DNA of 64,000 bases from a candidate division WOR-3 bacterium (GTDB lineage: Bacteria > Hydrothermota > Tepidihabitantia > Tepidihabitantales > Tepidihabitantaceae): positions 1 through 64,000 of the forward strand of contig JABLXZ010000004.1 of assembly GCA_013177935.1 (NCBI GenBank), in the 5' to 3' direction. The first letter of the stretch is position 1. Every line of letters starts with the position of its first letter. Positions 1,192 through 32,624 of the stretch are shown here, in pieces. The notes beneath the pieces are model-generated. The model was given only the letters and a program-made list of their open reading frames with translations. It was not told the origin of the DNA and ran no database searches. The position numbers were made by a program, and so were the translations under genes.

Positions 1192-1803
1192 TTAATAACC
1201 CCACTCTTCGTTCATATAGGTCTTGCGCCGACAGTCCGGACAGAGCACCCTTAATGTGCCAGAACGGTAAGGAACCGCACCGGCAGGCGCTTCCTGCGGC
1301 GCGGCAACACCCAGCGACTGGTAAAGGGTCAAAAACAGGGTCGGGTTGGAGTTGACCAAATCGCCAACCCGATGGGCAATCCATAAAAGGTGTGCCCGGG
1401 TGGCAAACGGTTCACCACAGATTTCACAGTAAACCAGTTCCTTTTCAACCGATGTTTCCCAGCCACCCCGTTCGGTCCGGGAAAGGTCAAACTCCGGTGT
1501 GTGGTAAATCGCATCGTTCGGGCAGTGCAGAACGCACTGGGCACAGTAGATGCAACGGTCCGCATGGTGGATGTTCCGCTTTACACCCTTCGCAAGGTCG
1601 GTGACAATCTCGCGGGCGTCGGTCGGGCAGACCTGAACACAGGCGCCACAGCAGATGCAGTTCTCTTCCCGGAATTTCAAAATCCCCCGGAAGTTGGGAT
1701 GAACCGAATCAACCTTTTTCGGAAACTGGGTGGTAAACGGACCTTTAACCACCGCCCGCACCGCTTCAATTAGTTCCCGCAGTTTTGGTAATGGAATCCT
1801 CAT
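1192..1803 (-). CDS. Hydrogenase ferredoxin-type subunit, NuoI/HycF/MbhN-like
   Basis: This 203-residue Fe-S subunit should carry electrons between the input module and the NiFe site of the membrane hydrogenase. Two 4Fe-4S motifs are visible: C49-x2-C52-x2-C55-x3-C59 and C84-x2-C87-x2-C90-x3-C94. This is the NuoI/TYKY arrangement. The C-terminal third adds two more pairs, C126-x2-C129 and C188-x2-C191, that look like a metal-binding knuckle. NuoI usually lacks these, whereas HycF/HyfH-type subunits can have such extensions. It is the last gene of the operon, overlaps mnhG by 4 bases, and is separated from the other hydrogenase genes by the whole antiporter block. The family is clear; the role of the extra cysteines is inferred. 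Confidence 0.88.
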   Translation of the reverse strand: MRIPLPKLRELIEAVRAVVKGPFTTQFPKKVDSVHPNFRGILKFREENCICCGACVQVCPTDAREIVTDLAKGVKRNIHHADRCIYCAQCVLHCPNDAIYHTPEFDLSRTERGGWETSVEKELVYCEICGEPFATRAHLLWIAHRVGDLVNSNPTLFLTLYQSLGVAAPQEAPAGAVPYRSGTLRVLCPDCRRKTYMNEEWGY

Positions 1804-2153
1804 TTTTCTTCCTCAATGATTGATTTGCCACCACGGTCTTCGGTAAACTTGTCCTTGACCGTACCCTTCCACAGTTTTACCCCGGCGATTAAGGAGCCGC
1901 GTGCCAGCGCGTGACTGGAAACCGGAACCGTGACCAAAATGAAAAGGGCACAGATGAGCGCCTTGATGCCGAGCGCCGAGAAACCGGTCTTCAGGAAAAC
2001 ACCGAGCATAATACCGCAAACCCCAAGGGTAACGCACTTGGTTGCTGCCTGCATACGGTTGTAGATGTCCGGAAACCGTGCCAGCCCAAGTGCGCCCAGA
2101 AGCACGAAAATCACGCCGAGCCAGAGCGAAATCAGTGCCAGTGCGCTAATCAT
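1800..2153 (-). CDS. mnhG: Mrp/Mnh Na+/H+ antiporter subunit G
   Basis: This 117-residue membrane protein has about three hydrophobic segments and the MnhG-type stretch GLARFPDIYNRMQAATK after the first. MnhG is a small subunit of the multisubunit Mrp cation/proton antiporter in the inner membrane. The ATG at 2153 is preferred over an upstream in-frame start because AAGGAG sits just before it and it overlaps the mnhF stop by 8 bases, a coupled arrangement. The C-terminal tail (KDKFTEDRGG...) is charged and probably cytoplasmic. It belongs to the E-F-G run at the distal end of the hydrogenase-antiporter operon. Confidence 0.92.
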   Translation of the reverse strand: MISALALISLWLGVIFVLLGALGLARFPDIYNRMQAATKCVTLGVCGIMLGVFLKTGFSALGIKALICALFILVTVPVSSHALARGSLIAGVKLWKGTVKDKFTEDRGGKSIIEEEK

Positions 2154-2397
2154 CAAGACTCCTTCCTTCGAGATACTTTGCCAGCGCCAGCGCGCCGATA
2201 AATGAGATGACCGCAAGCGCAATTGAGATGTCCAGAAGGTAACTCAGCCGGTACTGAAGCGCAACCAAGGCGGTAATCGCCGAGAACACAACACCCATCA
2301 TATCAACCGCAATCGCCCGGTCGGCAATTGATGGACCCTGAAGCGCCCGATACAGGCAGAAGAGCGCTGCCGGAATTAAAACGATAATCGGTATCAT
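2146..2397 (-). CDS. mnhF: Mrp/Mnh antiporter subunit F
   Basis: This 83-residue protein has three hydrophobic segments and the conserved MnhF motif SIADRAIAVDMMG (residues about 27-39), whose acidic residue lies near the membrane surface. It is a small structural subunit of the Mrp antiporter. It lies between mnhE (13-base gap) and mnhG (8-base overlap), the standard order in Mrp and Mbh gene clusters. Length and motif match the family closely. Confidence 0.92.
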   Translation of the reverse strand: MIPIIVLIPAALFCLYRALQGPSIADRAIAVDMMGVVFSAITALVALQYRLSYLLDISIALAVISFIGALALAKYLEGRSLDD

Positions 2398-2410
2398 CGC
2401 TCAAGCCTCC

Positions 2411-2899
2411 TTAATCAAATATCCGCGCGAGGAAAAACTCAAACGGTCCTTTAATCATCCGGGCGCACTCTTCCGGGTCGTCACTGCGCACTTCAATCCA
2501 GTGAATGTAGAGGTAGTCGTCCTTAATTTCCACTGTGAGTGTACCCGGGGTCATTGTGATTGAGTTTGCTAAAAACACCCGGGCGATGTCGCTCTTCAAG
2601 TTGGTCTTAATCTTAACAATTCCCGGTTTTAAGTTCATTCCCGGGGAAAGGACGCGCAGGGCAACATCAATGTTCGCCTTGAGACACTGCCAGATAAACA
2701 CCGGGATATACGCAATAAGCCAGAACCAGCGCACCGGATTCAAAAGTTTTCCTGCCTTCAGGGGTAGATAACCACCGAACATACCCGCGGTAATCGCCGA
2801 TACCGCAACACCGGCAAGGACCTCCTGATAGTGCAGGGTCCAGCTTAATAGTACCCAGACGATAAGTCCGGCAATGAAGTAAGCAATGCGCTTTGCCAT
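2411..2899 (-). CDS. mnhE: Mrp/Mnh antiporter subunit E
   Basis: At 162 residues this is the usual MnhE length. The first 90 residues contain hydrophobic segments. The soluble C-terminal half carries the MnhE signature NSITMTPGTL (about 112-121) followed by a beta-rich segment and the DPEE region. MnhE is a structural subunit of Mrp-type antiporters and of the membrane-bound hydrogenases derived from them. Its start follows the mnhD stop by one base, so translation is probably coupled. Confidence 0.93.
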   Translation of the reverse strand: MAKRIAYFIAGLIVWVLLSWTLHYQEVLAGVAVSAITAGMFGGYLPLKAGKLLNPVRWFWLIAYIPVFIWQCLKANIDVALRVLSPGMNLKPGIVKIKTNLKSDIARVFLANSITMTPGTLTVEIKDDYLYIHWIEVRSDDPEECARMIKGPFEFFLARIFD

Positions 2900-2900
2900 C

Positions 2901-4406
2901 TTATCCTCCGAGCATCAATCGGGCATAGTCAAGCCCGTTCAAAAGCACCTTTGCCGCCGGACCAACGAGATGGTCCAGAACGCCCTGAAAACCTATGCCA
3001 ACAACGAGGATTAAAACGACCAGAAGAACCATCGCCAGAACCATCGTCGCCGGTGACTCTTTTGCCCGGGTGGGCTCTTCGTTCTTTTTCACAAAGAAGG
3101 CGGTGTTGACAACCTTTGTTAAATAACTCAAAGTCACCGCGGAGAAGAGCGCGGCAAGGAACGCTAGCCAGTACATCCGGGCGGCAATCGCACCGATGAT
3201 GATGAACAACTTGGAGAAGAATCCGGCAAAAGGCGGCACTCCTGCCATTGAGAATGAGCCAAGAATGTGCGCCCAGGATGTGAAGGGCATTGACCGCTCC
3301 AGCCCTTTCAGATGGTCAAGTTCCCTTGTGCCCGCCTGCATCTCAACCGAACCACTGGCTAAGAACAAAGTACCCTTGCCTAAGGCGTGGGCAAGGATGT
3401 GAAACAGCGCACCGACAAACCCCCAGTAGTTGCCGATGCCGAGCGCAACAAGGATATAACCAATCTGGCTGATACTGGAGTAGGCAAGGAGCCGTTTGTA
3501 GTCGTTCTGGGAGTAGGCTAAAAGTCCACCCAGTACCATTGAGACTGCACCAAAGGCGATGAGCAGGTTGAAGAACGCCGGAGTTTCTGCCCGGGAAACA
3601 CCGAACACATTGAACATCAAACGGCACATTCCGTAAACACCGGTGACCTTGATAAACACACCGGAAAGCATCGCCGAGATGGGTGCCGGTGCTGAGAAGT
3701 GGGCATCAGCCAACCAGGCGTGGAACGGTTCCATACCCATCTTGATGGCAAATCCGATTAACAGGGTGGCAATTGCAAACCAGTAAAAGGGCGTTTTACC
3801 GGTAGTTGCCAGTGTCTGAGATAGGGTTGCCAGATTCAAAGTTGAAGCGTGGGCGTAGAGTAGTGCAATGCCAAAGAGGAGCACCGCCCCACCCACTTCA
3901 CCCAGTACCATATATTTGAACGCCGCCTCAACCTCTTCCTCTTCGGTGCCAAACGCCACCAGCGCATAACTGGCAATGGCAGAAATCTCAATGAAGACAA
4001 ACATATTGAACAGGTCACCAGATATCGCCAGCCCATTCAAACCGGCAACAAGGAGCAAGAACAGGGTGTAAAACTTCCAGCGGCCCGTGGTGTAGCGGTC
4101 CAGATACCGAATGGAATAAAGCATGGCACAGAAACCCACGATGTTAATCACCAGAACAACGAGTGCGGTCAGGGCGTCAAACCACATCGCGATGCCAATT
4201 ACCTTCCAGCCACCAACCCAGTAGTGCAGCGGCAGTCCACCCGCTTTCAAAATTAGCCAGGTGTAGACCGAAATAACGAGAAGCGCGGCACTGGCGATAC
4301 CAGCAATCAAATCGGCAAAACGGGACCACAGTTTTGACAGTAAGGGCACGAGAAAGGCGCCCGCTAAAGGCACCGCGATAAACAGTGGTAAAAACCTTGA
4401 CTCCAT
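2901..4406 (-). CDS. mnhD: Mrp/Mnh antiporter subunit D (NuoM/N-type proton channel)
   Basis: This 501-residue polytopic protein belongs to the NuoL/M/N-MrpA/D antiporter family. About fourteen hydrophobic segments are apparent. Conserved elements include a Glu in the fifth-helix region (FVFIEISAIASYAL), a Lys-bearing helix (FAIKMGMEPFHAWLADAH) and the APAPISAMLSG loop. These carry the proton or Na+ path in complex I-like enzymes. It is the third antiporter-fold subunit in the operon, with the 415- and 640-residue ones, and is followed by mnhE and preceded by mnhC as in Mrp operons. The identity is clear; the transported ion (H+ versus Na+) cannot be read from the sequence. Confidence 0.93.
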   Translation of the reverse strand: MESRFLPLFIAVPLAGAFLVPLLSKLWSRFADLIAGIASAALLVISVYTWLILKAGGLPLHYWVGGWKVIGIAMWFDALTALVVLVINIVGFCAMLYSIRYLDRYTTGRWKFYTLFLLLVAGLNGLAISGDLFNMFVFIEISAIASYALVAFGTEEEEVEAAFKYMVLGEVGGAVLLFGIALLYAHASTLNLATLSQTLATTGKTPFYWFAIATLLIGFAIKMGMEPFHAWLADAHFSAPAPISAMLSGVFIKVTGVYGMCRLMFNVFGVSRAETPAFFNLLIAFGAVSMVLGGLLAYSQNDYKRLLAYSSISQIGYILVALGIGNYWGFVGALFHILAHALGKGTLFLASGSVEMQAGTRELDHLKGLERSMPFTSWAHILGSFSMAGVPPFAGFFSKLFIIIGAIAARMYWLAFLAALFSAVTLSYLTKVVNTAFFVKKNEEPTRAKESPATMVLAMVLLVVLILVVGIGFQGVLDHLVGPAAKVLLNGLDYARLMLGG

Positions 4407-4412
4407 CGGCTC

Positions 4413-4766
4413 TTATCCTTTCAACTTTCGGAATTCCGAAACATCAAAGGTCTTGTGTTTCTCATAGAGACGGAGCGCAAGTGAGAGCATCAAAGCGGTG
4501 GTTGACAGTCCGATGACGATTGCGGTTAACACCAGCGCCTGGGGTACCGGGTCAACAAAGTTGCGGGCAACACCGAGCCGTAACTGGTCGGCACTGGTGA
4601 TAATCGGCGGCAAAGCACCCTTTTTAAACCCGACCAAGGCAAAGAAGAGATTGACCGCATACTCAATCAAACAGAAGCCAATCACAATTTTAATCAGGTT
4701 GCGCTTTGACACCACGACATAGAGACCGATGAGAAACAAAAGGACGCAGGCGATATAGGGTATCAT
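4413..4766 (-). CDS. mnhC: Mrp/Mnh antiporter subunit C (NuoK-like)
   Basis: This 117-residue protein has three hydrophobic helices and the NuoK/MnhC pattern. One helix carries an acidic residue (GFCLIEYAVNLFFAL) and is followed by a loop and the segment VDPVPQALVLTAIVIG. In complex I the matching glutamates lie on the proton route, and in Mrp this subunit packs against MrpA and MrpD. It sits between mnhB (2-base gap) and mnhD (6-base gap). Length and motifs are typical. Confidence 0.93.
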   Translation of the reverse strand: MIPYIACVLLFLIGLYVVVSKRNLIKIVIGFCLIEYAVNLFFALVGFKKGALPPIITSADQLRLGVARNFVDPVPQALVLTAIVIGLSTTALMLSLALRLYEKHKTFDVSEFRKLKG

Positions 4767-4768
4767 CT

Positions 4769-5209
4769 CTACTCCTTCATCACAAACCTTGAGGCGCCCA
4801 GCGCCAGAAAGATGGCAAAGAGACCGGCGCCAACCTTCATCCCAATAGCGATGTTTGCCAGAGGAATCAAACCACCAGAAACCAGTTGCAGGGGCTTGCC
4901 TAAATAAAACACACCCGTATTGCGGAAAAAGATGTCCGCAGCAAAGTAGCCGGCGAGCGCCAGCGCAAGGAAGAAAACACCGCCCAAACTTTCAAACACC
5001 GAGGAAAGGATATAGCGCCGTCGTTCTACCTGCTCCACCGAACCAAATGACAGCGAAATAAGAATCAACGCCGCGGCAACCAAAACTCCACCGGCAAATC
5101 CGCCGCCGGGCGTTAAATGACCATGGAGGATTATGTAGCCACCGTAGAGGAATAGCATTCCGGCGAGCAGTCCTGCCATTACCTGAACAATCAAAGACAT
5201 CCCGCGCAT
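4769..5209 (-). CDS. mnhB: Mrp/Mnh antiporter subunit B
   Basis: This 146-residue membrane protein has four hydrophobic segments and the family signature HGHLTPGGGFAGGVL (about residues 34-48). I place the start at the ATG at 5209, immediately after the upstream stop (TAGTATG). A longer start at 5242 would lie inside the upstream gene. MnhB is a structural subunit of the Mrp antiporter. The adjacent upstream gene supplies the MrpA C-terminal part, as in archaeal Mbh/Mrp clusters where MrpA is split. Confidence 0.9.
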   Translation of the reverse strand: MRGMSLIVQVMAGLLAGMLFLYGGYIILHGHLTPGGGFAGGVLVAAALILISLSFGSVEQVERRRYILSSVFESLGGVFFLALALAGYFAADIFFRNTGVFYLGKPLQLVSGGLIPLANIAIGMKVGAGLFAIFLALGASRFVMKE

Positions 5210-5210
5210 A

Positions 5211-5756
5211 CTAACTTCCCCCCGGTTTTTTCTTGGTGACAAATCGCATCACCGTCAATACACCAACCACCGCAGTGAACAAGACCGTTGCCTCACCTAA
5301 GGTGTCATAACCCCGGAAGTCCAGAATGATTGCCGCAACGATGTTCGCCGCTCCGGTCCGTTCCAGTCCAAACTGGATGTAGTCGGTCGCAAGCCGCATC
5401 AGGGGCTGACCAAAGACGGGTAACTCCCGGAACACACCGATGATGAGCGAAAGGAATAGCCCGCCAAAGGCAAGAAATGCGGCGATGAACATTGCAGTCT
5501 CCATCTTTAAACCGCCGCTTGCCGTGGTATCAATCTCAGTCGTGCGCAGAATCACCGCAGTAAATAACACAACCGTTAAGGTCTCAACCACAATCTGAAC
5601 AATCGCCAGGTCGGGCGCCTGGACTAAAATGAACATAATCGCAACGCTGAACCCGACCAAACCCAGCGCCACCGCTGCCGCCAGCAGATTCTTGGTCTCG
5701 CTGGCAACCAGCGCCGCTGCCAGCATCACACCTAAAAGAATGTAAAGTTCAACCAT
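5211..5756 (-). CDS. MrpA C-terminal domain protein (MbhD + MbhE fused)
   Basis: This 181-residue membrane protein matches the C-terminal part of MrpA/MnhA, which is two small genes, mbhD and mbhE, in archaeal membrane-bound hydrogenase. The first half has the DUF4040-type segment QAPDLAIVQIVVETLTVVLF (about 46-65). The second half has the MbhE-like motif DFRGYDTLGEATVLF near residues 145-159. The two parts are one reading frame here. The rest of MrpA is presumably supplied by the upstream 640-residue NuoL-like subunit. A three-base gap separates it from that gene. Confidence 0.88.
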   Translation of the reverse strand: MVELYILLGVMLAAALVASETKNLLAAAVALGLVGFSVAIMFILVQAPDLAIVQIVVETLTVVLFTAVILRTTEIDTTASGGLKMETAMFIAAFLAFGGLFLSLIIGVFRELPVFGQPLMRLATDYIQFGLERTGAANIVAAIILDFRGYDTLGEATVLFTAVVGVLTVMRFVTKKKPGGS

Positions 5757-5759
5757 CTT

Positions 5760-7682
5760 TTACCTCAAAAACAGCAGTAAATAGAATATCACCGCGCCTA
5801 AAAATACCCAGGAGAGGTACAGCGGTAGATTACCGGTATGAATCTTCGACAGACCGAGTCCGAAGTAGTAGACCAGTTTACCAATGAACTCTGCCAGCGC
5901 CTCAAGTACCCGGTCCACACCTTCGCGCAGACCAGAACCAACCACCTTGAAGATTCCCACCAGCCAGTTGTAAAAGTCAAAAGCACCCCGTTCGCCAAAG
6001 ACGAGCATCTCGCCAATTAAAGGCATATGCTTCACCGATGAGTAAAATGCGGTTCCGGGCACCCGGCTCTCCTCTTCATCAGCAATCTTCTCGCCACCGA
6101 CAAAGGTCTTTCCCGGCACCGGTCGGGCTGCAGTACCGAAAAGGTACAAAATGGCGCCAAAACCGAGCGCGGCAAATAGTAACAGGGTTGCCGGAATCGG
6201 ACTCCAGGCGCCGTAAAGTGTTACATCGTAAAACCCGAGCCCGGGTAAAATCAGCCCGACCAGCGGCAACTGGTAGGCAAACACGCCGAAAACCACACAG
6301 GCAAGTGCCAACAGGAAAGGTGGCAACCACATCGTCATACTCACCTCGCGCACCCGTTCCAGATTTGCCGGACGCTGACCAAAGAACAGCGCATGGAGCA
6401 TCTTCAAAAACGACGCCAGCGTCAAAACACTGCCCAGCATCGCCGCCACCAGGAAGATGGGAAACAGCCGGTTGCCTTCACTGCCAATTGATAAGACCCC
6501 CTGATAAACCATCCACTTTGAGAAAAACCCGTTGAGCGGTGGCACACCGGCAATCGCCAGAGCACAGATAAAGAACGAAATAAAGGTCAAGGGCATCTGC
6601 TTTGCCACACCACCCAGTTTTTCCAGTTCATCGGTCTTTGCCCAGTGTTCTACCGAACCACCCGCCAGGAAAAGTCCGGTCTTGTATATCGCATTGTTGA
6701 GCATATGGAAAAGACCACCCGCAATACCAACCGGAATCCCGGTACCAATTCCCAAAACCATATAACCAACCTGGGAGACCGCGTGAAATGCCAGTAGTTT
6801 CATCATCCGCTTCTGAACCAGCGCCATCATCACCGCCGCGATAATCGTCAAAGCGCCAATCGCCATCAATGAGTTGCGCAAAACCATATTGCTTGAGATG
6901 TCAAACATCGAGACGCAGAGCCGGGTCAAAAGGTAAATCCCGAGGAGTTTGTCCAGTGATGCCGGTATCAGCGCCATCACCGGTGCCGGTGCGGTCTCAG
7001 CTGCCTGCGGAATCCAGGTGTGCAAAGGCATCGCCCCGGCTTTGGCAAGGGCACCCGCTGTTACAAGCAAAAATCCGGCGATTATTATCGGGTCGTAAAG
7101 CGGTAGCGGCACCTTGGGCGCCAGGTCAATCCAGCCACCCGCAATGAATGTTCTGGTCAATAAAAGGACCACACCTAAAAGCATCGCAAAGTCGGACAGT
7201 CCGACGATAACCAGCGCCTTGCGCGCGGTAAGGAAGGTGTCGCCTTTGCCAATCAAAAGAATGCCATACAGGACAAAGAGCAGGGCGCCCCAGAAGAAGA
7301 ACAGGACCGCAAGGTTGGCGCTCAACACAACTCCGTTGGCAAAACCGAGAATCAAAAGGCAGTAGAGGTAATAACCCCTGGTTCCTTCCCGGCCTCGCAT
7401 ATAGCGGAAGGAGTAAAATACGATGAGCGCGGTAAAGACACTGACAAACAGGAGGACAAAACCGGACAACTGGTCAAGACGCAAAGCAATCTGAACCCCG
7501 GCAACCTCTCCAATCTTTAAAACCTGCTCGCTACCCCGAACTAAAAACAACCGGATGGCGTAGTAAAGTGAAGCAAGGACACCGATAAAACTGAACTCAT
7601 TGCGCAACCTGCCAACCAGATAGCCTAATACTCCCGCCGCTATCGGCGCAACGATGATTAACACAAAAGAATGAGCCAACAT
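5760..7682 (-). CDS. Antiporter-like subunit, NuoL/MbhH/MrpA-N type
   Basis: This 640-residue polytopic membrane protein is of the NuoL/MrpA N-terminal family. Visible features are the helix with Lys and the downstream loop (GALAKAGAMPLHTWIPQAAE), the APAPVMALIPASLDKLLG segment, and the GVPPLNGFFSKWM motif. A C-terminal extension of about 130 residues includes an amphipathic stretch and a final hydrophobic anchor, like the lateral helix region of NuoL-type proteins. It should pump H+ or Na+ when the hydrogenase module turns over. The ATG overlaps the neighbouring 415-residue gene's stop by one base (TAATG). Confidence 0.9.
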   Translation of the reverse strand: MLAHSFVLIIVAPIAAGVLGYLVGRLRNEFSFIGVLASLYYAIRLFLVRGSEQVLKIGEVAGVQIALRLDQLSGFVLLFVSVFTALIVFYSFRYMRGREGTRGYYLYCLLILGFANGVVLSANLAVLFFFWGALLFVLYGILLIGKGDTFLTARKALVIVGLSDFAMLLGVVLLLTRTFIAGGWIDLAPKVPLPLYDPIIIAGFLLVTAGALAKAGAMPLHTWIPQAAETAPAPVMALIPASLDKLLGIYLLTRLCVSMFDISSNMVLRNSLMAIGALTIIAAVMMALVQKRMMKLLAFHAVSQVGYMVLGIGTGIPVGIAGGLFHMLNNAIYKTGLFLAGGSVEHWAKTDELEKLGGVAKQMPLTFISFFICALAIAGVPPLNGFFSKWMVYQGVLSIGSEGNRLFPIFLVAAMLGSVLTLASFLKMLHALFFGQRPANLERVREVSMTMWLPPFLLALACVVFGVFAYQLPLVGLILPGLGFYDVTLYGAWSPIPATLLLFAALGFGAILYLFGTAARPVPGKTFVGGEKIADEEESRVPGTAFYSSVKHMPLIGEMLVFGERGAFDFYNWLVGIFKVVGSGLREGVDRVLEALAEFIGKLVYYFGLGLSKIHTGNLPLYLSWVFLGAVIFYLLLFLR

Positions 7683-8929
7683 TACCAGCCTCCGCCTAAC
7701 ATTGTCATCCCTAAACCGCTAAACCCCGCTTCGAGAAACCGCACCGGCATAAACCACAGGATGCCGGCTAAAACCGTTCCAATCGCCATCACTACTACGA
7801 GAAATACCACAAAACCCGGAACCTTGCCATAACCATTCGGGTTTGCACCCAAAAATATCCGGGAATAGAACCGGCTCAAATAAAGAATGGTGAACAGCGC
7901 CGCTACCAGGGCGCCAATGCCGAGCAGGATTGAACTGCGCACCTCACCAAGAACCACACCCAGTTTGGCAAAAAACCCTAAGGTCGGTGGTAACCCCATC
8001 ACCGAAAGCACCAGCACCGCAGTGGCACCGGCAAGCACCGGCGAGTTGCGGGCAAAACCACCCAGCCGGGACAGGTCTCCAGACCCGCTCACATCTTCAA
8101 CCACACCGGCCGCGAAAAAGATTCCCGACTTGGCAATGGCATGCGCCATAATGTAAAGCATCGCTCCCATCAAACCGTAATAACCAGCACTGGCTAATCC
8201 GAGTAAAACAAAACCCATCTGACCCACGGTTGAGTACGCCAGGGTCTCGCGAATGGTCTTGGTCGTCAACGCTACGCCGCCTGCAATTAAACTCGACGCA
8301 ACCGCAACAATCGCTACCGCGAGGAAAAGCGGTTTTGGCACCTGCATTGTCAACACATAAAGTTTCAAGAACAGAACCAGTCCCAGATTTTCTGCCACAC
8401 CTGAAAGCAGGGCGCAAACCGCGGCTGGTGCCTGTTGATAAGCCCGGGGTAACCAGATGTAAAGCGGCAGAGTTGCGGATTTGGCAACAATACCAATCAG
8501 GATAAGTATCGCAGGAAACAGGGGCAACGGTTTTCCTGCCAGCGCGGCAAGGTCCAGTGTCCCCTGCTCAAGTTGTATCAAAATAAGACCAAGAAGCATC
8601 ACCGCGGCTGCAACAAAGTTTAAGTACAGCGCCCAAGCACCGGCAAAAATACTCTCCTCCTTACGGAAATAACTCACCAGCCGCCAGAGCGCCACAGTTG
8701 CCAGTTCCCAGAACACATACAATAAGAGAAGGTTACCCGCAAACACCACACCCAGTGCCGCACCTGAAAGCACAAGGAAAAATATGTAGTACTCAGCGAT
8801 TTGCCCTCTACTGCCGCGCACCCGGGCAAACGAATACAAAAGCGTCATCAGCCCGATAAAACCGAACACCAGAGAGAGAAACACCTCAATCGGTCCGGTT
8901 GAGTAACTGGTCCAGGAACCGAAGTTCAT
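7682..8929 (-). CDS. Antiporter-like subunit, NuoM/NuoN/HyfB type
   Basis: This 415-residue polytopic protein is a second complex I-like antiporter homologue. It has the conserved GIVAKSATLPLYIWLPRAYQ helix-loop, the APAAVCALLSGVAENLG segment and a GLPPTLGFFAKLG motif near residue 315. It is shorter than MnhD (501) and the NuoL-like subunit (640) and lacks the C-terminal extension of the latter. It overlaps the hydrogenase large-subunit gene by 4 bases (ATGA), so it belongs to the hydrogenase-side membrane arm. Which homologue (NuoM, NuoN or HyfF) it equals cannot be decided by eye. Confidence 0.88.
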   Translation of the reverse strand: MNFGSWTSYSTGPIEVFLSLVFGFIGLMTLLYSFARVRGSRGQIAEYYIFFLVLSGAALGVVFAGNLLLLYVFWELATVALWRLVSYFRKEESIFAGAWALYLNFVAAAVMLLGLILIQLEQGTLDLAALAGKPLPLFPAILILIGIVAKSATLPLYIWLPRAYQQAPAAVCALLSGVAENLGLVLFLKLYVLTMQVPKPLFLAVAIVAVASSLIAGGVALTTKTIRETLAYSTVGQMGFVLLGLASAGYYGLMGAMLYIMAHAIAKSGIFFAAGVVEDVSGSGDLSRLGGFARNSPVLAGATAVLVLSVMGLPPTLGFFAKLGVVLGEVRSSILLGIGALVAALFTILYLSRFYSRIFLGANPNGYGKVPGFVVFLVVVMAIGTVLAGILWFMPVRFLEAGFSGLGMTMLGGGW

Positions 8930-10116
8930 TTGAATCGCTCCCTTATTTTCTCGGTTTTTTCCCAGGAAAGCCGCAACAACTCATTACCGGTAAATTTCAG
9001 TTTACCGTTCTCAAACGCCGCCATCCGTTCGGTGCAACAGTAACAGGGGTCAACCGCTGCCAGGGTGAGCGCCGCATCCGCAATTGAACCACCCCGAACC
9101 GCCACCACATTGGAAGCGATGTTCATATAACTTGGTGCCCGAATCTTATGGCGCAAGGGCCGGTTCGAACCGTCCGAACGGATGTAGTGGAACACCTCAC
9201 CCCGTGGTGCCTCGGTTCTGCCAATCCCTTCACCAGGCGGAACCTCATCAATCCTGATATCAATCGGTCCATCCGGCAAATTCTTCAGACAGCCACGAAT
9301 GATTTTAACCGACTCAAATATCTCCAGAAGCCGCACCTTTGCCTTGGCAAACACATCGCCTTCAGGCAAAACAATCACATTCCAGGGCACCTGGTCATAA
9401 GCGGCATGGGGGTCGTCGCGCCGAACATCAATATCCACGCCAGAAGCGCGTGCGGTTGGTCCAACAACCGACCAGTGCAGCGCCTGCTCTTTTGTCAGAA
9501 TCCCCACCCCTTCTAATCGGGCACGAATCACCGGGTCGTCAAGCACCGCCTTGGTAAGCATCATCGTCTTCTTTTCCACCACATCAAGCACCGCCTCAAT
9601 CTGGGGAATCTGCTCCGGCTTGATGTCCCAGCGCACACCACCCGGTTTATTAGCAGCGTAGTGGTTCCGGTTACCGGTAATCATCTCAAAAACCTCAAGG
9701 ATGTGCTCCCGGTAACGCCACGCCCACATCCAGACCGTGTTGTATCCGATGAAATGGCCCGCAAGACCAACCCAGAGTAAGTGCGAGTGAATCCGCTCCA
9801 GTTCATGGATGATGCTACGGATGTAGTTTGCCCGGGGTGGCGGTTTAATCCCGGCACAGTCTTCAATCGCCAGCACCGCTGCTAAGGGGTGCGAATTGGA
9901 ACAGATGCCGCAAATTCTTTCCACGAGAAACGGCACCTGCTCATAGGTCAACTCCGGTGAAATAAACTCATGACCCCGATGGTTGTAGCCAAGGTGAATC
10001 TCCAGGTCCACCACCGTCTCGCCTTCCACAATCAGTTTGAAAAACTCCGGCTCCTCCTGCAATGGATGATAGGGACCAATTGGGACAATACGCCGCTGCT
10101 TTTGCTCACCGCTCAT
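8926..10116 (-). CDS. Group 4 NiFe hydrogenase large subunit (NuoD-like)
   Basis: This 396-residue catalytic subunit of a membrane-bound NiFe hydrogenase should interconvert H+ and H2. Both NiFe-binding motifs are intact. L1 is R67-I-C69-G-I-C72-x3-H76. L2 is DPCYCCTER near the C-terminus, fitting DPCxxCxxR. This separates it from NuoD and Mbx-type subunits, which have lost these cysteines. After the L2 arginine, 32 residues remain, the same length as the tail removed from E. coli HycE by its maturation protease, so C-terminal processing is expected. The group 4/NuoD mark HLGYNHRGHE is at about 41-50. I chose the ATG at 10116, preceded by GGAGG and overlapping the upstream stop by 11 bases, over a longer start at 10224. 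Confidence 0.93.
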   Translation of the reverse strand: MSGEQKQRRIVPIGPYHPLQEEPEFFKLIVEGETVVDLEIHLGYNHRGHEFISPELTYEQVPFLVERICGICSNSHPLAAVLAIEDCAGIKPPPRANYIRSIIHELERIHSHLLWVGLAGHFIGYNTVWMWAWRYREHILEVFEMITGNRNHYAANKPGGVRWDIKPEQIPQIEAVLDVVEKKTMMLTKAVLDDPVIRARLEGVGILTKEQALHWSVVGPTARASGVDIDVRRDDPHAAYDQVPWNVIVLPEGDVFAKAKVRLLEIFESVKIIRGCLKNLPDGPIDIRIDEVPPGEGIGRTEAPRGEVFHYIRSDGSNRPLRHKIRAPSYMNIASNVVAVRGGSIADAALTLAAVDPCYCCTERMAAFENGKLKFTGNELLRLSWEKTEKIRERFK

Positions 10117-10558
10117 GGGCTTCACTCCTCCGTTCATAATCCCGGCGCAATGGGAAGCGGTCCGGTTCCCAATCGGTGTCCGAAGTGAGAAGCGGTGCCG
10201 GGTTCGGGTGGCCAATGAACTCAATCCCTAAAAGTTCGTGCATCTCGCGCTCAATCCATTGCGCCGCAGGAAACCAGCTGCCCTGAGCCTCAATCCGTGG
10301 GTCGTCTTTGGGCGCAAACACCTTTATTGTATAAATGATACCGGTTGTGTCTTCCGAAAAGTGGTACAACACCTCAAACCCGTCCCGAGTGTCGATACCG
10401 GTGGCGATTGAAAGCCTCATCCCCCGCTCTTCGTGGAGAAACCTTGCCGCCGCAGTCAGTTTTTCCCGCAGAATTGTCAGGTACAAACGCCGCGGATTTT
10501 TCTCAAACACCATGGTATCGGGAAACCGCTCCTGAAACAGTTTCAGTGATTCGCTCAT
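10106..10558 (-). CDS. Hydrogenase subunit, NuoC / HycE N-terminal-like
   Basis: This 150-residue soluble protein is of the 30-kDa NuoC family. The conserved signature lies near residues 100-125: SWFPAAQWIEREMHELLGIEF, then GHPNPAPLLTSD and a RFPLRRDY-like end. In complex I and group 4 hydrogenases this subunit contacts the large subunit; in E. coli HycE the two are fused, here they are separate genes. Four-base overlap with the upstream NuoB-like gene (ATGA) and 11-base overlap with the large-subunit gene indicate coupled synthesis. Confidence 0.9.
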   Translation of the reverse strand: MSESLKLFQERFPDTMVFEKNPRRLYLTILREKLTAAARFLHEERGMRLSIATGIDTRDGFEVLYHFSEDTTGIIYTIKVFAPKDDPRIEAQGSWFPAAQWIEREMHELLGIEFIGHPNPAPLLTSDTDWEPDRFPLRRDYERRSEAHER

Positions 10559-10971
10559 AGTTTACTCAACGCCTTTACCACACCCATTATCATCGCCTCG
10601 GGTTTTGGTGGACAGCCCGGAATGTAGGCATGAACCGGGATGTGTTTGTCATACGGTCCAACCGCATTGTACGAGTTCCGGAAGATGTGACAGTTACACG
10701 CACAGGTACCAATCGCAATCACCAGGCAGGGCTTGGGCGTCTGTTCGTAAACCTCAAGCACCCGGGGTAAAGATTTCCGATTGATGACCCCGGTAACAAG
10801 TAACGCATCCGCATGCCGGGGCGAGCCTACCAAAACAACCCCGAACCGTTCAACATCGTAGCGTGGTGTCAAAAGTTCCAGTATCTCAATGTCACAGTTG
10901 TTGCACGACGCCGCCGCCACATGGTAAACCCAAGGTGATTTTTTAAGTCCCCAGAGTCTTAAGTCTTTCAT
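10555..10971 (-). CDS. Hydrogenase small subunit, NuoB-like
   Basis: This 138-residue subunit should bind the 4Fe-4S cluster nearest the NiFe site. Candidate ligands are C23 and C26 (SCNNCDIE), C90 in the GTCACNC stretch (C92 and C94 are extra) and C120 in PGCPPKPEA. The CxxC spacing is the hydrogenase form rather than the adjacent-Cys form of complex I NuoB. It lacks the twin-arginine signal and the second and third clusters of periplasmic hydrogenase small subunits, so it is a cytoplasm-facing group 4 subunit. Gene overlaps on both sides are 4 bases. Confidence 0.92.
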   Translation of the reverse strand: MKDLRLWGLKKSPWVYHVAAASCNNCDIEILELLTPRYDVERFGVVLVGSPRHADALLVTGVINRKSLPRVLEVYEQTPKPCLVIAIGTCACNCHIFRNSYNAVGPYDKHIPVHAYIPGCPPKPEAMIMGVVKALSKL

Positions 10972-11924
10972 AAGCCAATAAATGCTAATACCACCGCAAT
11001 TATACCCAATGGAGCCAGAATGAACCAGAAAAACCCGAGCGCCTGGTCAATCCTGAGCCGGGGGTTGGTGTTCTTCATCAACACCACCAGAACCACAATC
11101 AAGAGAAACTTCAAAATTGCCCACCAATCGGTAATACCACCCCACAACACGGTGATTAAGAGAAGTGGCAGCAGGACAAACATCATCGCCCGGGTGATGC
11201 GAAATGCCGCAAGGGGCGCACCTGAATACTCCACCAGAACCCCGGACATTATCTCCTGTTCCGCCTCAGGAATGTCAAATGGTACATAACCCAGTTTTGC
11301 CTGAATCGTAAACAGGATAATCACCGCCGCAATCACACCGGAAACCGAATACAAAAATGGCCCATACTGTTGTTGATAGGCTACCAGTCCGCCAATTCTT
11401 AAAGCACTCGCCACATCCCAGCGCTGTGCCACCTTAACAATCGGCACGAGAAGCGCCAGTACAAAGGGCAGTTCGTAACCAAGATATAATGTCATCTCGC
11501 GGGACGCACCTACCGCGGCAACCGGGTTGCGTGATGCCGAGGCGCCCACGATAAAACTGAGCGGAACCAGTGCCAGGAGGTATAAAAGCACAATGATATC
11601 ACCGATAAACGATGTTTTCTGCGCTACGACCAAGCCCGTGTTGCTGAAGAAAAGAAGCAGCGCCACCAGACTCATCCCGGCTATGCCCACCAGGGGCGAC
11701 AGTAGAAACACCGTACGCGAAGCACCCTGAGGAACTATGGTCTGTTTTAATAGCAGTTTCAGGATGTCGGCAAATGGCTGATAAAAGGGCGGACCTTTCC
11801 GCCACTGCACCCGCGCCGAAACAAACCGGTCAACCCAGTTCAAAATCAGTCCGGCAACCGGTACAACAATCAGGGTACCGATAAACGCTATCACCAGACG
11901 CCATCCCGACAAAAATGAACTCAC
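10968..11924 (-). CDS. Membrane anchor subunit, NuoH/HycD/MbhM-like
   Basis: This 318-residue polytopic protein is of the NuoH family, which anchors the hydrogenase core and forms the entry of the ion path. Visible motifs are WVDRFVSARVQWRKGPPFYQPFADILKLL without its opening residues, i.e. the R-x-Q-x-R-x-GP element near residues 33-45, and the FDIPEAEQEIMSGVLVEYSG acidic loop. Both are hallmarks of the family. Length is typical for HycD/MbhM. It overlaps the neighbouring genes by 4 bases at both ends. Confidence 0.92.
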   Translation of the reverse strand: MSSFLSGWRLVIAFIGTLIVVPVAGLILNWVDRFVSARVQWRKGPPFYQPFADILKLLLKQTIVPQGASRTVFLLSPLVGIAGMSLVALLLFFSNTGLVVAQKTSFIGDIIVLLYLLALVPLSFIVGASASRNPVAAVGASREMTLYLGYELPFVLALLVPIVKVAQRWDVASALRIGGLVAYQQQYGPFLYSVSGVIAAVIILFTIQAKLGYVPFDIPEAEQEIMSGVLVEYSGAPLAAFRITRAMMFVLLPLLLITVLWGGITDWWAILKFLLIVVLVVLMKNTNPRLRIDQALGFFWFILAPLGIIAVVLAFIGL

Positions 11925-12409
11925 ACCCGCCTCCAGAATGGCAACCGGGAAAGCACCCGCTTCCCAACCATCAACTCTTTCATCTCCTCTTCATCAACAA
12001 ACTGTAACGCACCGGTGGGACAGGAAGCCGCACACCTTGGTCCAGCTTCCCGGTCCTCACAAAGGTTGCACTTCTGCGCAATCCGGCGCAACAAATCCTT
12101 GTCCAGAACCCCGAAAGGACAGGCAAGGATGCACGATTTGCAACCAACACAGTGAACACTGGACTGATATACAATCCCGTTCTCTTCATCCTTCTTTATC
12201 ACATCAAACGGGCACGCCGCAGCACATAAAGGCTCGGCGCAATGCCGGCAGGGCAGGGGTATGAAAACCGTCTCACCTACCGGCGCATAACGAATGCGCG
12301 CTTCACCTTTAAACCGACTCCGGCACGCCGCTTCGCAGGCGCGACAACCAATGCAGTAGTCCAGACGAACGACCAATCGCTTCTTAATCTTTACGCCGAC
12401 ACTCGCCAT
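11921..12409 (-). CDS. Four-cluster ferredoxin, HycB/HyfA/FdhB-like
   Basis: This 162-residue polyferredoxin has sixteen cysteines arranged for four 4Fe-4S clusters: C19/22/25/29, C54/57/62/66, C87/90/93/97 and C114/117/126/130. This is the pattern of HycB, HydN and formate dehydrogenase beta subunits, which shuttle electrons between a molybdopterin subunit and the hydrogenase. Its gene overlaps the end of the molybdopterin-fold gene by 19 bases, supporting a direct partnership. An AAAGGTCGAGAT ribosome binding site precedes the ATG. Confidence 0.92.
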   Translation of the reverse strand: MASVGVKIKKRLVVRLDYCIGCRACEAACRSRFKGEARIRYAPVGETVFIPLPCRHCAEPLCAAACPFDVIKKDEENGIVYQSSVHCVGCKSCILACPFGVLDKDLLRRIAQKCNLCEDREAGPRCAASCPTGALQFVDEEEMKELMVGKRVLSRLPFWRRV

Positions 12410-14007
12410 ATCTCGACCTTTGCTGGCGGAATTTTAGCCTCGCCCGTTCCGGCGTCAACTTCGACCGGAAACAGCGCCCGGTTTTGATGAACATTGACTC
12501 CGACGCTTGCGGTCCCAGGTGAAACTACCGGCAGAACCCTGACGCGGAATTGACGCTCACCGGTTTTACTTTTCACCCTAACAAAATCGTCTTCCCGAAC
12601 CGCAAGTTTCTCGGCATCGGCTGGATGTAATATAACCTCGTCCTCGGGTTCAAAGAAACCGCCCACACCAATCGCCTCTTTTCTGCCCAGAAGCCAGTAA
12701 AGATTCCCTTCGGTTGCGGCCGCGGCACCCAGATGTTTACTTAGCGCTTGAGGAAGTTGTGCCATCACCTCTTCCAGTTTTACAGGCTGGTAAAATTCAC
12801 CAGCCATCTCCTTCACCGTACCAAACTGGCTAACAATGTCCGCCAGCGTCCTGGTACCACTGACCGGATTCGCCAGCGGTTCGAATTTCACCTCACCCCA
12901 GACACTTTCGCCCCTGCCCGCCTTTTCAAATTCACTGGGCACCGGCAGTACCAAACCGGGGAGCGGTGTTGTCGGCCGGAATATGCTCGTTGCCACCCGG
13001 AACTGCACTTGATTTAACTCCGGGAACAACTCAGAATAACTGTAAGGATGTAGCCCACCGAACCAGAAGAGAAGTTTAATTCTCCCTGCGCCCACCGCCT
13101 CTTTAAACTTTCCGAACCCCATCTTCCCATCCGGTACCAGCGCCTCACCAAAACCAACAAAAGGCTTCTCCGCCTTTAACGCTAAAATCTGAGCACAGAT
13201 TGAGTGCCAGTAAGGTTCGGTTATCCGCCCGGCAGTTGCCGCACAGGCAACCAGACCATTAACCCCGGGCTTCAAAATCTTTGCCGCCTCTTCCATCTGT
13301 TTGCGCGGCACCCCAGTTCTGGTTGCAACCCCATCAATATCAACCTTCAACTTTGGGTCGATAAGTCCGGCAATGCCCGCAAGTACCAAAAACTCGGTGC
13401 CGGGTTTGGGTTGAATGAATATGTGCGCAAAACCTGCCTGCCGGATTTTTATTGAGTCAATCACCACCATCCGGCTTTGTTTATCCGCATAACGGGCTTC
13501 AATTATCCCCTTCGCTGCCACCGGTGATGTGCTGAACACATCGCCCACAAGCAGGGTCGCCCGGCTTGCTGTCACATCATCAACTGTTGCCGGTTTGACA
13601 CCAGCGAGCCGATACCGGAACGCATTTTCCGGCTCCAGATAACCACAAACGAGATTGTCTGTTCCCAGCGCCGCGGCAAAACCACGCACCAGCCCGATAT
13701 CAGCTGCACCCGCACCCCGGCTGTAAACAACCGCAATCTCCTCAGGCTTCACCATCTGATGCCAGTTTTTCATTAACGCAAACGCCTTTTCCCAGGTGAT
13801 TTCTTTGCCATCAAGTAGCGGATAACCGAGCCGCTTGGGATGGTCAATTACGACATTAGCGCTGTTACCACGGGGACAGGTTCGCCCATTGTTTGGCGCC
13901 ACATCAGCCAAATACTCCATTCGATACTGATACCCATCAAACACAATTCCCAGCTGACAACCATTACGGCACATTACGCAGGTCGAACGCTTAATCTCGT
14001 TCATCAC
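12391..14007 (-). CDS. Molybdopterin oxidoreductase-fold subunit, FdhA/NuoG-like, no evident Mo-ligand Cys/Sec
   Basis: This 538-residue protein belongs to the bis-MGD molybdopterin oxidoreductase superfamily. The N-terminal 4Fe-4S site is intact: C10-x2-C13-x3-C17 and C44 in TCPRG, nearly the spacing of formate dehydrogenase H. Downstream segments match the fold, including a C-terminal molydopterin dinucleotide-binding domain (EVILHPADAEKLAVREDDFVRV is the middle of it, about residues 456-477). Where formate dehydrogenases have the Mo-ligating Cys/Sec after a GTNN-like segment, this protein reads GTDNLVCGYLEPENAFRY, with no Cys or Sec in the expected position and no in-frame TGA. It is also shorter than FdhF-type enzymes (about 700). 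It may be a NuoG-like electron conduit rather than a formate dehydrogenase. The family is clear; loss of activity is inferred from a hand alignment. Confidence 0.85.
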   Translation of the reverse strand: MMNEIKRSTCVMCRNGCQLGIVFDGYQYRMEYLADVAPNNGRTCPRGNSANVVIDHPKRLGYPLLDGKEITWEKAFALMKNWHQMVKPEEIAVVYSRGAGAADIGLVRGFAAALGTDNLVCGYLEPENAFRYRLAGVKPATVDDVTASRATLLVGDVFSTSPVAAKGIIEARYADKQSRMVVIDSIKIRQAGFAHIFIQPKPGTEFLVLAGIAGLIDPKLKVDIDGVATRTGVPRKQMEEAAKILKPGVNGLVACAATAGRITEPYWHSICAQILALKAEKPFVGFGEALVPDGKMGFGKFKEAVGAGRIKLLFWFGGLHPYSYSELFPELNQVQFRVATSIFRPTTPLPGLVLPVPSEFEKAGRGESVWGEVKFEPLANPVSGTRTLADIVSQFGTVKEMAGEFYQPVKLEEVMAQLPQALSKHLGAAAATEGNLYWLLGRKEAIGVGGFFEPEDEVILHPADAEKLAVREDDFVRVKSKTGERQFRVRVLPVVSPGTASVGVNVHQNRALFPVEVDAGTGEAKIPPAKVEIWRVSA

Positions 14008-14819
14008 AGGAAAGGCTCCTCAATGTCCTTTATCTGTTCCCAGGTCAGAACCGGTCCATCTTTGCAGGTGAAATAGGGACCAAGCCGACAGTGTCCGCAC
14101 TGACCCAAGCCACAGGACATATTCATTTCCATCGAAAGATAAATTGACTTTCCCGGAAAACCGGCATCAAGCAGTTTCTTGGTTACAAACTTCATCATTA
14201 TCGGCGGACCGCATACGACCGCAACGCTCTTTTTCACATCGCAGGGTATTTCGTCCATCAGGCAGGTCACAACCCCAACCTTCCTTTCCCAGGGTTCATC
14301 AGCGCTGTCTACCGAAAGGTCGATATCCACCTTCTTTATCTTCTCCCACTCCTTCAACTGCTTCTTATAGACAATGTCTTTCGGTGTCCGGGCACCGTAA
14401 CGAAGGAAAATTCTACCATACTTATTTATTTCATGAACCAGTGCAAGAAACAGCGCCCGCAAAGGTGCCAGACCAACGCCGCCGCCCACGATGTAAATAT
14501 CCCTGCCCTCAAACTCTTTTAGCGGATACGGTTTGCCATAAGGTCCCCGAATGCCAAGCAGATCTCCGGGCTTCTTGGTAAAAAGCGCACCGGTCGCTCG
14601 ACCAACCCGCATTATCGTCATCTCAAGAACCTCGCGCTCGAAATGGGACGAAGACGGTGTGAACGGCGCCTCACCAAAGCCGGGTATGGTCAACTCAACA
14701 AACTGCCCGGCAAGAAACGGTATCTCCTTTTCGGGCTTCAAAACAAAAGTCCGGATATTGGGCGTTTCCTCAATAACATCCAAAATTTTGGTAGGAATTG
14801 GCTGGTATGGATTGTTCAT
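14004..14819 (-). CDS. FAD/NAD(P)-binding 2Fe-2S oxidoreductase, sulfhydrogenase gamma (HydG)/PyrK-like
   Basis: This 271-residue ferredoxin-NADP reductase-fold protein should exchange electrons with NAD(P)H. The FAD-binding barrel occupies the first ~100 residues (GQFVELTIPG, RVGRATGALF). The nucleotide-binding half starts at IVGGGVGLAPLRAL and includes CGPPIMM. A C-terminal 2Fe-2S site is formed by C236, C241, C244 and C252 (MSCGLGQCGHC ... TC). This is the layout of the gamma subunit of archaeal cytosolic hydrogenases and of dihydroorotate dehydrogenase electron-transfer subunits. With the next gene upstream it forms an NAD(P)H module. NAD versus NADP preference cannot be judged. Confidence 0.9.
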   Translation of the reverse strand: MNNPYQPIPTKILDVIEETPNIRTFVLKPEKEIPFLAGQFVELTIPGFGEAPFTPSSSHFEREVLEMTIMRVGRATGALFTKKPGDLLGIRGPYGKPYPLKEFEGRDIYIVGGGVGLAPLRALFLALVHEINKYGRIFLRYGARTPKDIVYKKQLKEWEKIKKVDIDLSVDSADEPWERKVGVVTCLMDEIPCDVKKSVAVVCGPPIMMKFVTKKLLDAGFPGKSIYLSMEMNMSCGLGQCGHCRLGPYFTCKDGPVLTWEQIKDIEEPFL

Positions 14820-15832
14820 AAGCGTCCTATAATATTCCTGATATCTATCTTACCCATACAAGCGGTAAAGCATCTGCCACAGCCCGAGCAGAAGTAAAAC
14901 CCGTGTTGATTCTTTCCATGCATAAACTTGCAGTGAAACCGGTTTATAAACCGTTTAATGAACTTTGCCCGGGGATTTGCACCGCCCCCAACTCGAGCAT
15001 ACATCGCCATATAACAGGCATCCCAAACTTTGGTGCGCTCCACTTTATCACCTTTTGCCTGGTCGTACAGTAAGAAACAGAAACAGGTCGGACAGGTCAT
15101 CAGACAGCCAAAACATTCGACGCAATCCTTTGCTGCTTCCGCCCAGAACTTTTCATCGTTGGTTCTTTCAGCAATCACCTGTGGTAAATTTGGATTCAGC
15201 GGTTTAGGATTGCGCTGCTGTAACACACCTTCTGCCTGCTGCCTTTGCGCATCCCGCTTGCTAATCTGCCTCTCAGCCGCAGGTTGCCAATTTTCGCCCT
15301 CAATCAGCTTTGCCCCTCTTTCCGACACAACCTCAACAAGCCAACCCTCATCAATTACACTGAGGACTAAATCCACCCCATCAACCGTATAAGGCTTCAG
15401 CCCAACAAGATTACAGAAGCAACTGTCTTTGGGCTCAGGACAATCTGCCCCGATAAGAACCGTCTCTTTTAATCGTTTAGAATAAAATGGGTCCGCAAAC
15501 TCACCCTCCAGGAACATCTTTTGATGAACCGCCAAACCTCTCAGGTCGCACCCCTTCACTCCAAAAAGAAGAGCCGGCTTTCCATCAGCCGGCTCCTCGA
15601 GTGGTTCGGGAAAGAGAGCAACCCGTTCCCGAGGGCTGAAAAGGAAAGATTTTATCGGCTCGGCCGCACGAATCTCCTTTAACGCCAGAGCATCTAAATC
15701 AACCTGTTCTTTTTCAAACCGCTGCCAGTGTACTCCATTACCAGCCTTAACCGGAATGAACAGGTTGTACCCGCCCGCAAGTCGGGCGAGCCAGTTGACG
15801 CGCCTTTCGTTTGGTAAGAAGTATATCGTCAA
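14816..15832 (-). CDS. 4Fe-4S dicluster subunit, sulfhydrogenase beta (HydB)/AsrA-like
   Basis: This 338-residue Fe-S protein resembles the beta subunit of sulfhydrogenase and anaerobic sulfite reductase subunit A. It starts with a domain containing GVKGCDLRGLAVHQKMF (about 93-109) and CPEPKDSCFCNLVG. It ends with two 4Fe-4S motifs, CVECFGCLMTCPTC and CSGCGRCFTACMGK. It should pass electrons between the flavin subunit encoded next and the rest of the complex. A linker rich in Gln/Arg/Ala lies around residues 185-215. The only plausible start is a TTG at 15832, 7 bases after a TAACTT -10 element, so the operon mRNA probably begins at its first codon. It is the first gene of the 18-gene operon. 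Confidence 0.88.
   Translation of the reverse strand: MTIYFLPNERRVNWLARLAGGYNLFIPVKAGNGVHWQRFEKEQVDLDALALKEIRAAEPIKSFLFSPRERVALFPEPLEEPADGKPALLFGVKGCDLRGLAVHQKMFLEGEFADPFYSKRLKETVLIGADCPEPKDSCFCNLVGLKPYTVDGVDLVLSVIDEGWLVEVVSERGAKLIEGENWQPAAERQISKRDAQRQQAEGVLQQRNPKPLNPNLPQVIAERTNDEKFWAEAAKDCVECFGCLMTCPTCFCFLLYDQAKGDKVERTKVWDACYMAMYARVGGGANPRAKFIKRFINRFHCKFMHGKNQHGFYFCSGCGRCFTACMGKIDIRNIIGRL

Positions 15833-32349: not shown

Positions 32350-32624
<275 letters not shown>

Follow-up and report, generated by a model that had tools for sequence, protein, structure and literature searches.

The DNA analysed here (the window) is a stretch of 64,000 nucleotides, positions 1 to 64,000 of contig JABLXZ010000004.1 in assembly GCA_013177935.1, from an uncultured candidate division WOR-3 bacterium whose 1.96 Mb genome, in five contigs, is 98.6% complete. 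On its minus strand, from 15832 to 1192, the window carries an operon of 18 open reading frames (ORFs) that brings together a HydB/HydG pair (HydBG), a molybdopterin-fold (MPT) subunit, a group 4 [NiFe] hydrogenase and Mrp-type antiporter genes, a content that points to a membrane hydrogenase linked to the pyridine nucleotides NADH or NADPH (NAD(P)H). An earlier note on the sequence had described 18 tightly packed genes on one strand behind a single promoter. All 18 are present, with gaps of −19 to +13 bases between neighbours, and Pfam and NCBIfam searches agree with the identity given to every gene (Table 1). The ORFs are real, but the best starts lie at about 10116 for NuoD, 5209 for MnhB and 2153 for MnhG. 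As for the single promoter, the packing makes it likely, but promoter-like matches were no more than chance predicts, and neither consensus promoters nor terminators stood out from shuffled sequence.

Table 1. The 18 genes of the operon from its 5′ end, with positions in the window.
Product	Position	Strand	Details
HydB-like two-[4Fe-4S] electron-transfer subunit	14816..15832	-	338 aa, TTG start; PF17179
HydG-like FAD/NAD(P)/[2Fe-2S] subunit	14004..14819	-	271 aa; PF00175, PF00970, PF10418
Molybdopterin-fold (MPT) subunit	12391..14007	-	538 aa; TIGR01591 83.8 bits
Four-cluster ferredoxin, CooF/HycB-like	11921..12409	-	162 aa, 16 Cys; PF13247
NuoH-like membrane subunit	10968..11924	-	PF00146 6.8e-59
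NuoB-like small subunit, proximal [4Fe-4S]	10555..10971	-	PF01058 3.7e-29
NuoC-like subunit	10106..10558	-	PF00329 5.2e-25
NuoD-like NiFe hydrogenase large subunit	8926..10116	-	PF00346, PF00374; C-terminal extension ~35 aa
Antiporter-like subunit 1	7682..8929	-	PF00361
Antiporter-like subunit 2, NuoL/MrpA-like	5760..7682	-	PF00361/PF00662
MbhD-MbhE fusion	5211..5756	-	PF13244, PF20501
MnhB	4769..5209	-	PF04039; start set at Met 5209
MnhC	4413..4766	-	PF00420
MnhD, third PF00361 subunit	2901..4406	-	PF00361 1.6e-70
MnhE	2411..2899	-	PF01899
MnhF	2146..2397	-	PF04066
MnhG	1800..2153	-	PF03334; start set at Met 2153
NuoI-like two-cluster ferredoxin subunit	1192..1803	-	NCBIfam HycF/HyfH/NuoI family; Fer4_7

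The NiFe motifs of NuoD, which the earlier note had called intact, read RICGICSNSH (L1, consensus RxCGxCxxxH) and DPCYCCTER (L2, consensus DPCxxCxxR), with both NiFe cysteine pairs kept, and the L1/L2 nickel-ligand motifs are present in all 39 relatives read. In the Protein Data Bank (PDB), the nearest structures to NuoD are the membrane-bound hydrogenase Mbh of Pyrococcus furiosus (6cfw_L, 3e-78) and HycE of the Escherichia coli formate hydrogenlyase (7z0s_E, 1.1e-75), with complex I subunits next. The nickel ligands, the NuoH and antiporter-like membrane subunits accompanying NuoB/C/D, and the Hyp genes of the genome are those of a group 4 [NiFe] hydrogenase. The host genome encodes HypD, HypE and HypF over cut-off, its single NiFe hydrogenase match is the one in this operon, and a search of the genome for FeFe hydrogenases found none; the operon therefore looks like the cell’s sole hydrogenase. 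The genome also encodes an Rnf-type RnfC, which offers a link between ferredoxin and NADH.

HydB and HydG have their best PDB matches in the beta and gamma subunits of the P. furiosus sulfhydrogenase SHI (9nez_B, 6.8e-41, and 9nez_C, 1.6e-49, respectively). HydB scores 155 bits with the NCBIfam model ShyB, 152 with HydB and 103 with AsrA, all under the equivalog cut-offs, and neither protein reaches the curated cut-offs set for the named families of sulfhydrogenases and sulfite reductases. Across 28 HydG sequences from several phyla, the flavin, NAD-loop and 2Fe-2S residues are invariant. The loop that follows the NAD-binding motif, YGARTPKD, is like that of the Nfn-small/PyrK homolog 4ylf (LGARTKDY) and unlike that of NADPH-linked SHI (NTARYGKD). 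As a means of choosing between NADH and NADPH, the loop gave too weak a signal and was not used.

To follow the operon through public genomes we used a NuoD profile, a single-sequence search of genome contigs with the MPT subunit having returned no matches, and took the best 80 of 475 NuoD relatives further. Database records assign the near-relative loci to candidate division WOR-3 (Caldifarciminota at NCBI). Of 40 loci in other genomes of this class, 38 have the whole eight-gene head (HydB-HydG-MPT-CooF-NuoH-B-C-D), and 23 loci besides that of the window carry the full set of 18 genes (two sets, of 8 and 15, with some genomes common to both), which excludes a chance assembly of the operon. 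Among loci with enough upstream DNA, HydG and CooF are in place in 27 of 28 from WOR-3 and 31 of 32 from other phyla; in the sole WOR-3 exception to HydG linkage the locus breaks off within CooF, in an assembly that looks suspicious. Distances of HydG correlate with those of NuoD at r = 0.85 in WOR-3 and 0.81 elsewhere, and the same comparison for NuoH gives 0.82 and 0.80. Given this fixed position, and distances that track NuoD as those of NuoH do, HydBG is most likely a subunit pair of the hydrogenase rather than a mere neighbour. The earlier claim that HydBG is joined to a membrane group 4 NiFe hydrogenase with Mrp subunits is thus borne out across WOR-3 and other phyla; the pattern that would have spoken against it, in which a Cys/Sec formate dehydrogenase (FDH) is always encoded and HydBG is never linked, is absent, because HydBG is linked and no Cys/Sec FDH stands in the MPT position.

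The MPT subunit had been described as FdhA/NuoG-like. The FDH fold stands: the model (mean predicted local distance difference test score 90.6, single chain) reaches TM-scores of 0.75–0.82 by query length against formate dehydrogenases and 0.69–0.73 against NuoG. Its best family is TIGR01591, at 83.8 bits against a cut-off of 666, with only 23.7 bits for the NuoG family, and by these scores the subunit is closer to FdhA than to NuoG. What does not stand is a catalytic reading. The protein is about 180 residues shorter than FdhF, and all 41 sequences compared keep the four cysteines of the N-terminal [4Fe-4S] cluster, whereas none of the 41 has the active-site Cys/Sec-His of formate dehydrogenase. 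MoaC is required for molybdopterin synthesis; no match to it was found in 60 of 61 genomes of the class, the lone match being a 35-position fragment at a contig edge in a 760-contig bin, and none of the 61 has a MoeA match over cut-off. Both genes were detected in 11 of 14 control genomes. Because the active-site pair is missing throughout and MoaC and MoeA are essentially absent, the MPT subunit almost certainly lacks molybdenum and very likely serves, with no cofactor bound, as an electron relay and scaffold rather than an enzyme, much like the C-terminal part of NuoG in complex I. An FDH role for the subunit was rejected on these grounds, and formate is therefore not expected to be the donor at this point.

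An MPT relative is encoded in 58 of the 61 genomes. Outside WOR-3, relatives of the operon lie mainly in Omnitrophota and Elusimicrobiota, with one in Aerophobetes and some in Clostridia-labelled bins. In the loci of Omnitrophota and Elusimicrobiota, the CooF-like gene comes immediately after HydG with no MPT gene between them, and on the NuoD tree the MPT-bearing loci and the HydG-CooF loci that lack it need one state change. On this distribution, in the loci compared, HydBG-CooF-hydrogenase-Mrp is apparently the older complex, and the MPT subunit a late addition, gained once, in WOR-3.

The sister lineages also carry a candidate regulatory signature. A perfect TTGTGA-N6-TCACAA palindrome lies between −300 and +80 of HydB in 16 of 29 non-WOR-3 loci (19 of 29 with at most one mismatch), and the remaining 1.93 Mb holds no perfect copy and ten with one mismatch. 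The lineages concerned are Omnitrophota, Endomicrobia and Clostridia-labelled bins (L119, L117, L126, L131, L110 and others). The palindrome usually follows closely on a sigma-70-like −10 box, a position suited to a repressor; in L110, L119, L130 and L133 the operon has a Rex gene as its neighbour. Rex has TTGTGAA-W4-TTCACAA as its published site and senses NADH, not NADPH (PMC2883068). The putative operators point to expression tied to NADH excess and are not proof of NADH as the substrate.

Taken together, these data lead us to propose, with a probability of about 0.68, that the 18 genes specify a single membrane complex, which would work as a reversible NAD(P)H:H+ oxidoreductase and link this reaction to the translocation of Na+/H+. 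The complex probably belongs to HydDB group 4g. Electrons would pass from NAD(P)H to the flavin adenine dinucleotide (FAD) and [2Fe-2S] cluster of HydG, on to the two [4Fe-4S] clusters of HydB, through the single [4Fe-4S] cluster of the MPT subunit acting as a NuoG-like relay to the four clusters of CooF, and from there by way of NuoI and NuoB to the NiFe site of NuoD. The best PDB match of the CooF-like ferredoxin is HycB3 of the hydrogen-dependent CO2 reductase (7qv7_A), and E. coli HycB (7z0s_B) also matched. Charge movement would fall to NuoH, MbhD/E and the three antiporter-like subunits with MnhB-C-E-F-G, the three probably forming a complex-I-like membrane arm; in antiporter-like subunit 1, E92 and K167 are conserved and the usual lysine of transmembrane helix 8 is missing. 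Since the potentials of NAD(P)H and H2 are nearly equal, the complex would run reversibly and near equilibrium. From standard potentials, NADH oxidation to H2 breaks even at about 66 Pa H2 at 25 °C and 143 Pa at 60 °C. At very low H2, NADH would be disposed of as H2 with little gain, and at higher H2 the ion gradient would be spent to drive the same reaction; the reverse direction would also be possible.

Several points weigh against this proposal. A break-even of about 66 Pa at 25 °C means little driving force for three antiporter modules, and CooF or NuoI could still give soluble ferredoxin a way in. No HypD/E/F was detected in four related genomes that retain the operon. The preference for NADH is affected as well: no perfect Rex-type operator was found in WOR-3 (0 of 66 loci), so the window’s NADH link rests on homology. 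Moreover, CRP-type sites have a core similar to the Rex palindrome, and Rex motifs also precede operons for carbon monoxide dehydrogenase and energy-converting hydrogenase (CODH/ECH), which do not use NADH (PMC13077300), which is why we read the sites in the sister lineages as bearing on expression only.

The alternative that survives best, although we consider it unlikely, is a ferredoxin-coupled, Mbh-like hydrogenase that draws its electrons mainly from reduced ferredoxin, with HydBG as no more than a side branch or as a ferredoxin:NAD(P)+ shuttle. The closest solved structure to NuoD is the ferredoxin-linked Mbh, HydDB lists the role of group 4g as undetermined and putatively ferredoxin-coupled, CooF and NuoI could both accept ferredoxin, and the bigger energy gap would suit three antiporter-like subunits. 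Were HydBG a side branch, however, its linkage and co-inheritance, as tight as those of the core subunits, and its place ahead of the operon in nearly every lineage examined would be hard to account for, and the Rex-type operators of sister lineages point to the NADH pool.

Flavin-based bifurcation or confurcation, in which electrons of NAD(P)H and ferredoxin would be combined into H2, is improbable. It would ease the energetics of making H2 from NADH, and a flavin subunit does stand beside several ferredoxin-like subunits; but HydG is of the Nfn-small/PyrK/SHI-gamma FAD type, which in Nfn is not the bifurcating flavin, and the operon holds no second flavin subunit and no NuoF-like subunit.

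More doubtful again is that the complex is no longer a hydrogenase in some lineages, or that HydBG works as an enzyme apart from the hydrogenase and only shares its operon. HypD was found in 50 of the 61 genomes of the class. In G019, G022 and G024, of one genus, and G021, of another family, there is no HypD, no HypE over cut-off and no full-length HypF. These four belong to the same order and two families, are 91–98% complete, and keep the operon (loci L057–L060) together with further NiFe hydrogenases. Yet the NiFe motifs and the C-terminal extension of NuoD are intact in exactly these loci, and the window genome itself has HypD/E/F and no other NiFe hydrogenase. In these lineages either the Hyp genes were lost in binning four times or NiFe maturation follows another route.

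The least probable reading is a complex of the formate hydrogenlyase type, in which formate or another substrate would be oxidised at the MPT subunit, with HydBG passing a share of the electrons to NAD(P)+: TIGR01591 and formate dehydrogenases are its best family and folds, and three Clostridia-labelled loci carry a full-length FDH gene near HydBG, but the lost active site, the missing MoaC and MoeA and the lack of the subunit from homologous Omnitrophota and Elusimicrobiota complexes leave it very little room.

In those three loci the gene is a true FDH alpha gene several genes upstream of HydB, scoring 842–868 bits in the two scanned (cut-off 666). At L110, L130 and L133, full-length FDH alpha and Rex genes, with FdhD as well in L110, where it was checked, precede HydBG and the group 4 hydrogenase. 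This arrangement may be a supercluster linked to formate, NADH and H2.

The proposed NAD(P)H:H+ oxidoreductase shares parts with several known enzymes. Mbh (group 4d, 6cfw), its closest solved relative by large subunit, has the Mrp-type membrane part and MbhD/E in common with it. To our knowledge, Mbh has no NAD(P)H module, MPT subunit or HycB-like ferredoxin; a dedicated oxidoreductase module is present in the window operon as the HydBG-MPT-CooF head. SHI (group 3b, 9nez) shares HydB and HydG but is soluble, with HydD/HydA instead of NuoB/NuoD and no membrane part; in the window operon the HydA/HydD catalytic pair is replaced by group 4 NuoB/NuoD. Complex I follows the same plan, with an NADH module, a molybdenum-free FDH-fold subunit (NuoG), NuoBCDHI and three antiporter-like subunits, and differs in that the window has HydBG for NuoEF, a NiFe site for the quinone site and an MPT subunit nearer FdhA than NuoG; no NuoE/NuoF module or quinone site was found in the operon, NiFe ligands being present instead. 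A formate hydrogenlyase (group 4a–4b, formate type) would need a competent Mo/W formate dehydrogenase subunit, which the operon lacks. The formate- and CO-driven Mrp hydrogenases of Thermococcus (group 4b) likewise combine an input oxidoreductase, a NiFe hydrogenase and Mrp subunits in one long operon, but their input is a catalytic FDH or CODH where the window has a pyridine-nucleotide module; the Thermococcus CODH cluster has 16 genes (PMC4731540).

The combination has been reported before: a group 4 cluster in one Saganbacteria genome, RX5A, has the same gene set, with NiFe and Mrp-like subunits, a molybdopterin oxidoreductase unclassifiable as formate dehydrogenase, cooF, asrA and asrB (Matheus Carnevali et al. 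2019, PMC6349859). It was called enigmatic and guessed to be Mbh-like, with its nearest relatives reported in Zixibacteria and Omnitrophica, and passages of the main text of that paper present it without NAD(P)H coupling, active-site loss, spread over phyla or Rex-type control. Omnitrophota 4g hydrogenases have been described as ferredoxin-coupled or redox balancing, with HydBG unmentioned in the available portions of those reports (PMC8542988, PMC10066038). One of them, from Ca. Saelkia tenebricola and assigned to 4g in PMC8542988, is our locus L114, which has 62% NuoD identity to the window, Mrp genes, HydB-HydG upstream and no MPT subunit. The window NuoD groups with L114 and takes its putative 4g label indirectly, through that relative; a NuoD tree with MbhL and HycE gives no placement among 4a–4i because the reference branches are very long. 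As far as the accessible text of these papers shows, the class-wide conservation, the apparently non-catalytic subunit, the order of assembly and the putative Rex-type operators are new.

If the proposal is true, HydDB group 4g gains a testable NAD(P)H-linked function, and annotations of 4g as ferredoxin-driven, or of the MPT subunit as a formate dehydrogenase, are probably wrong. It would account for H2 production from NADH in fermenters that have no bifurcating FeFe hydrogenase, this WOR-3 bacterium among them. It would also place, between membrane hydrogenases and complex I, a modular intermediate that acquired an FDH-fold subunit and in which, for the second time, such a subunit lost its cofactor. 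At about even odds, we would go further: an ion-translocating NADH:H+ oxidoreductase, in effect a complex I with protons as acceptor, may be a widespread, undescribed respiratory complex and a main redox valve of WOR-3, Omnitrophota and related uncultured phyla, with the molybdenum-free FDH-fold subunit as an independent counterpart of NuoG.

Some loci depart from the usual layout. In L050, L082, L089, L092 and L113, of which the named ones are CP07 ‘chromosome’ metagenome-assembled genomes, the operon is broken mid-gene at odd places; such breaks suggest artificially joined contigs, and apparent losses of operon parts in the CP07 genomes were set aside as probable effects of joins that run through genes. 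Two loci that fall inside WOR-3 on the tree, L096 (9568–11899) and L097 (2428–4792), hold a lone NuoC-NuoD-NuoI trio with no adjoining HydBG, NuoH, NuoB or Mrp genes, and in L096 it is directly preceded by genes resembling LarB and LarC, with AIR carboxylase and nickel-insertion domains. Elsewhere in the window, a signal recognition particle RNA on the plus strand (32351–32623) has an archaeal model as its best Rfam match (101.2 bits, over the gathering score), though the genome is bacterial.

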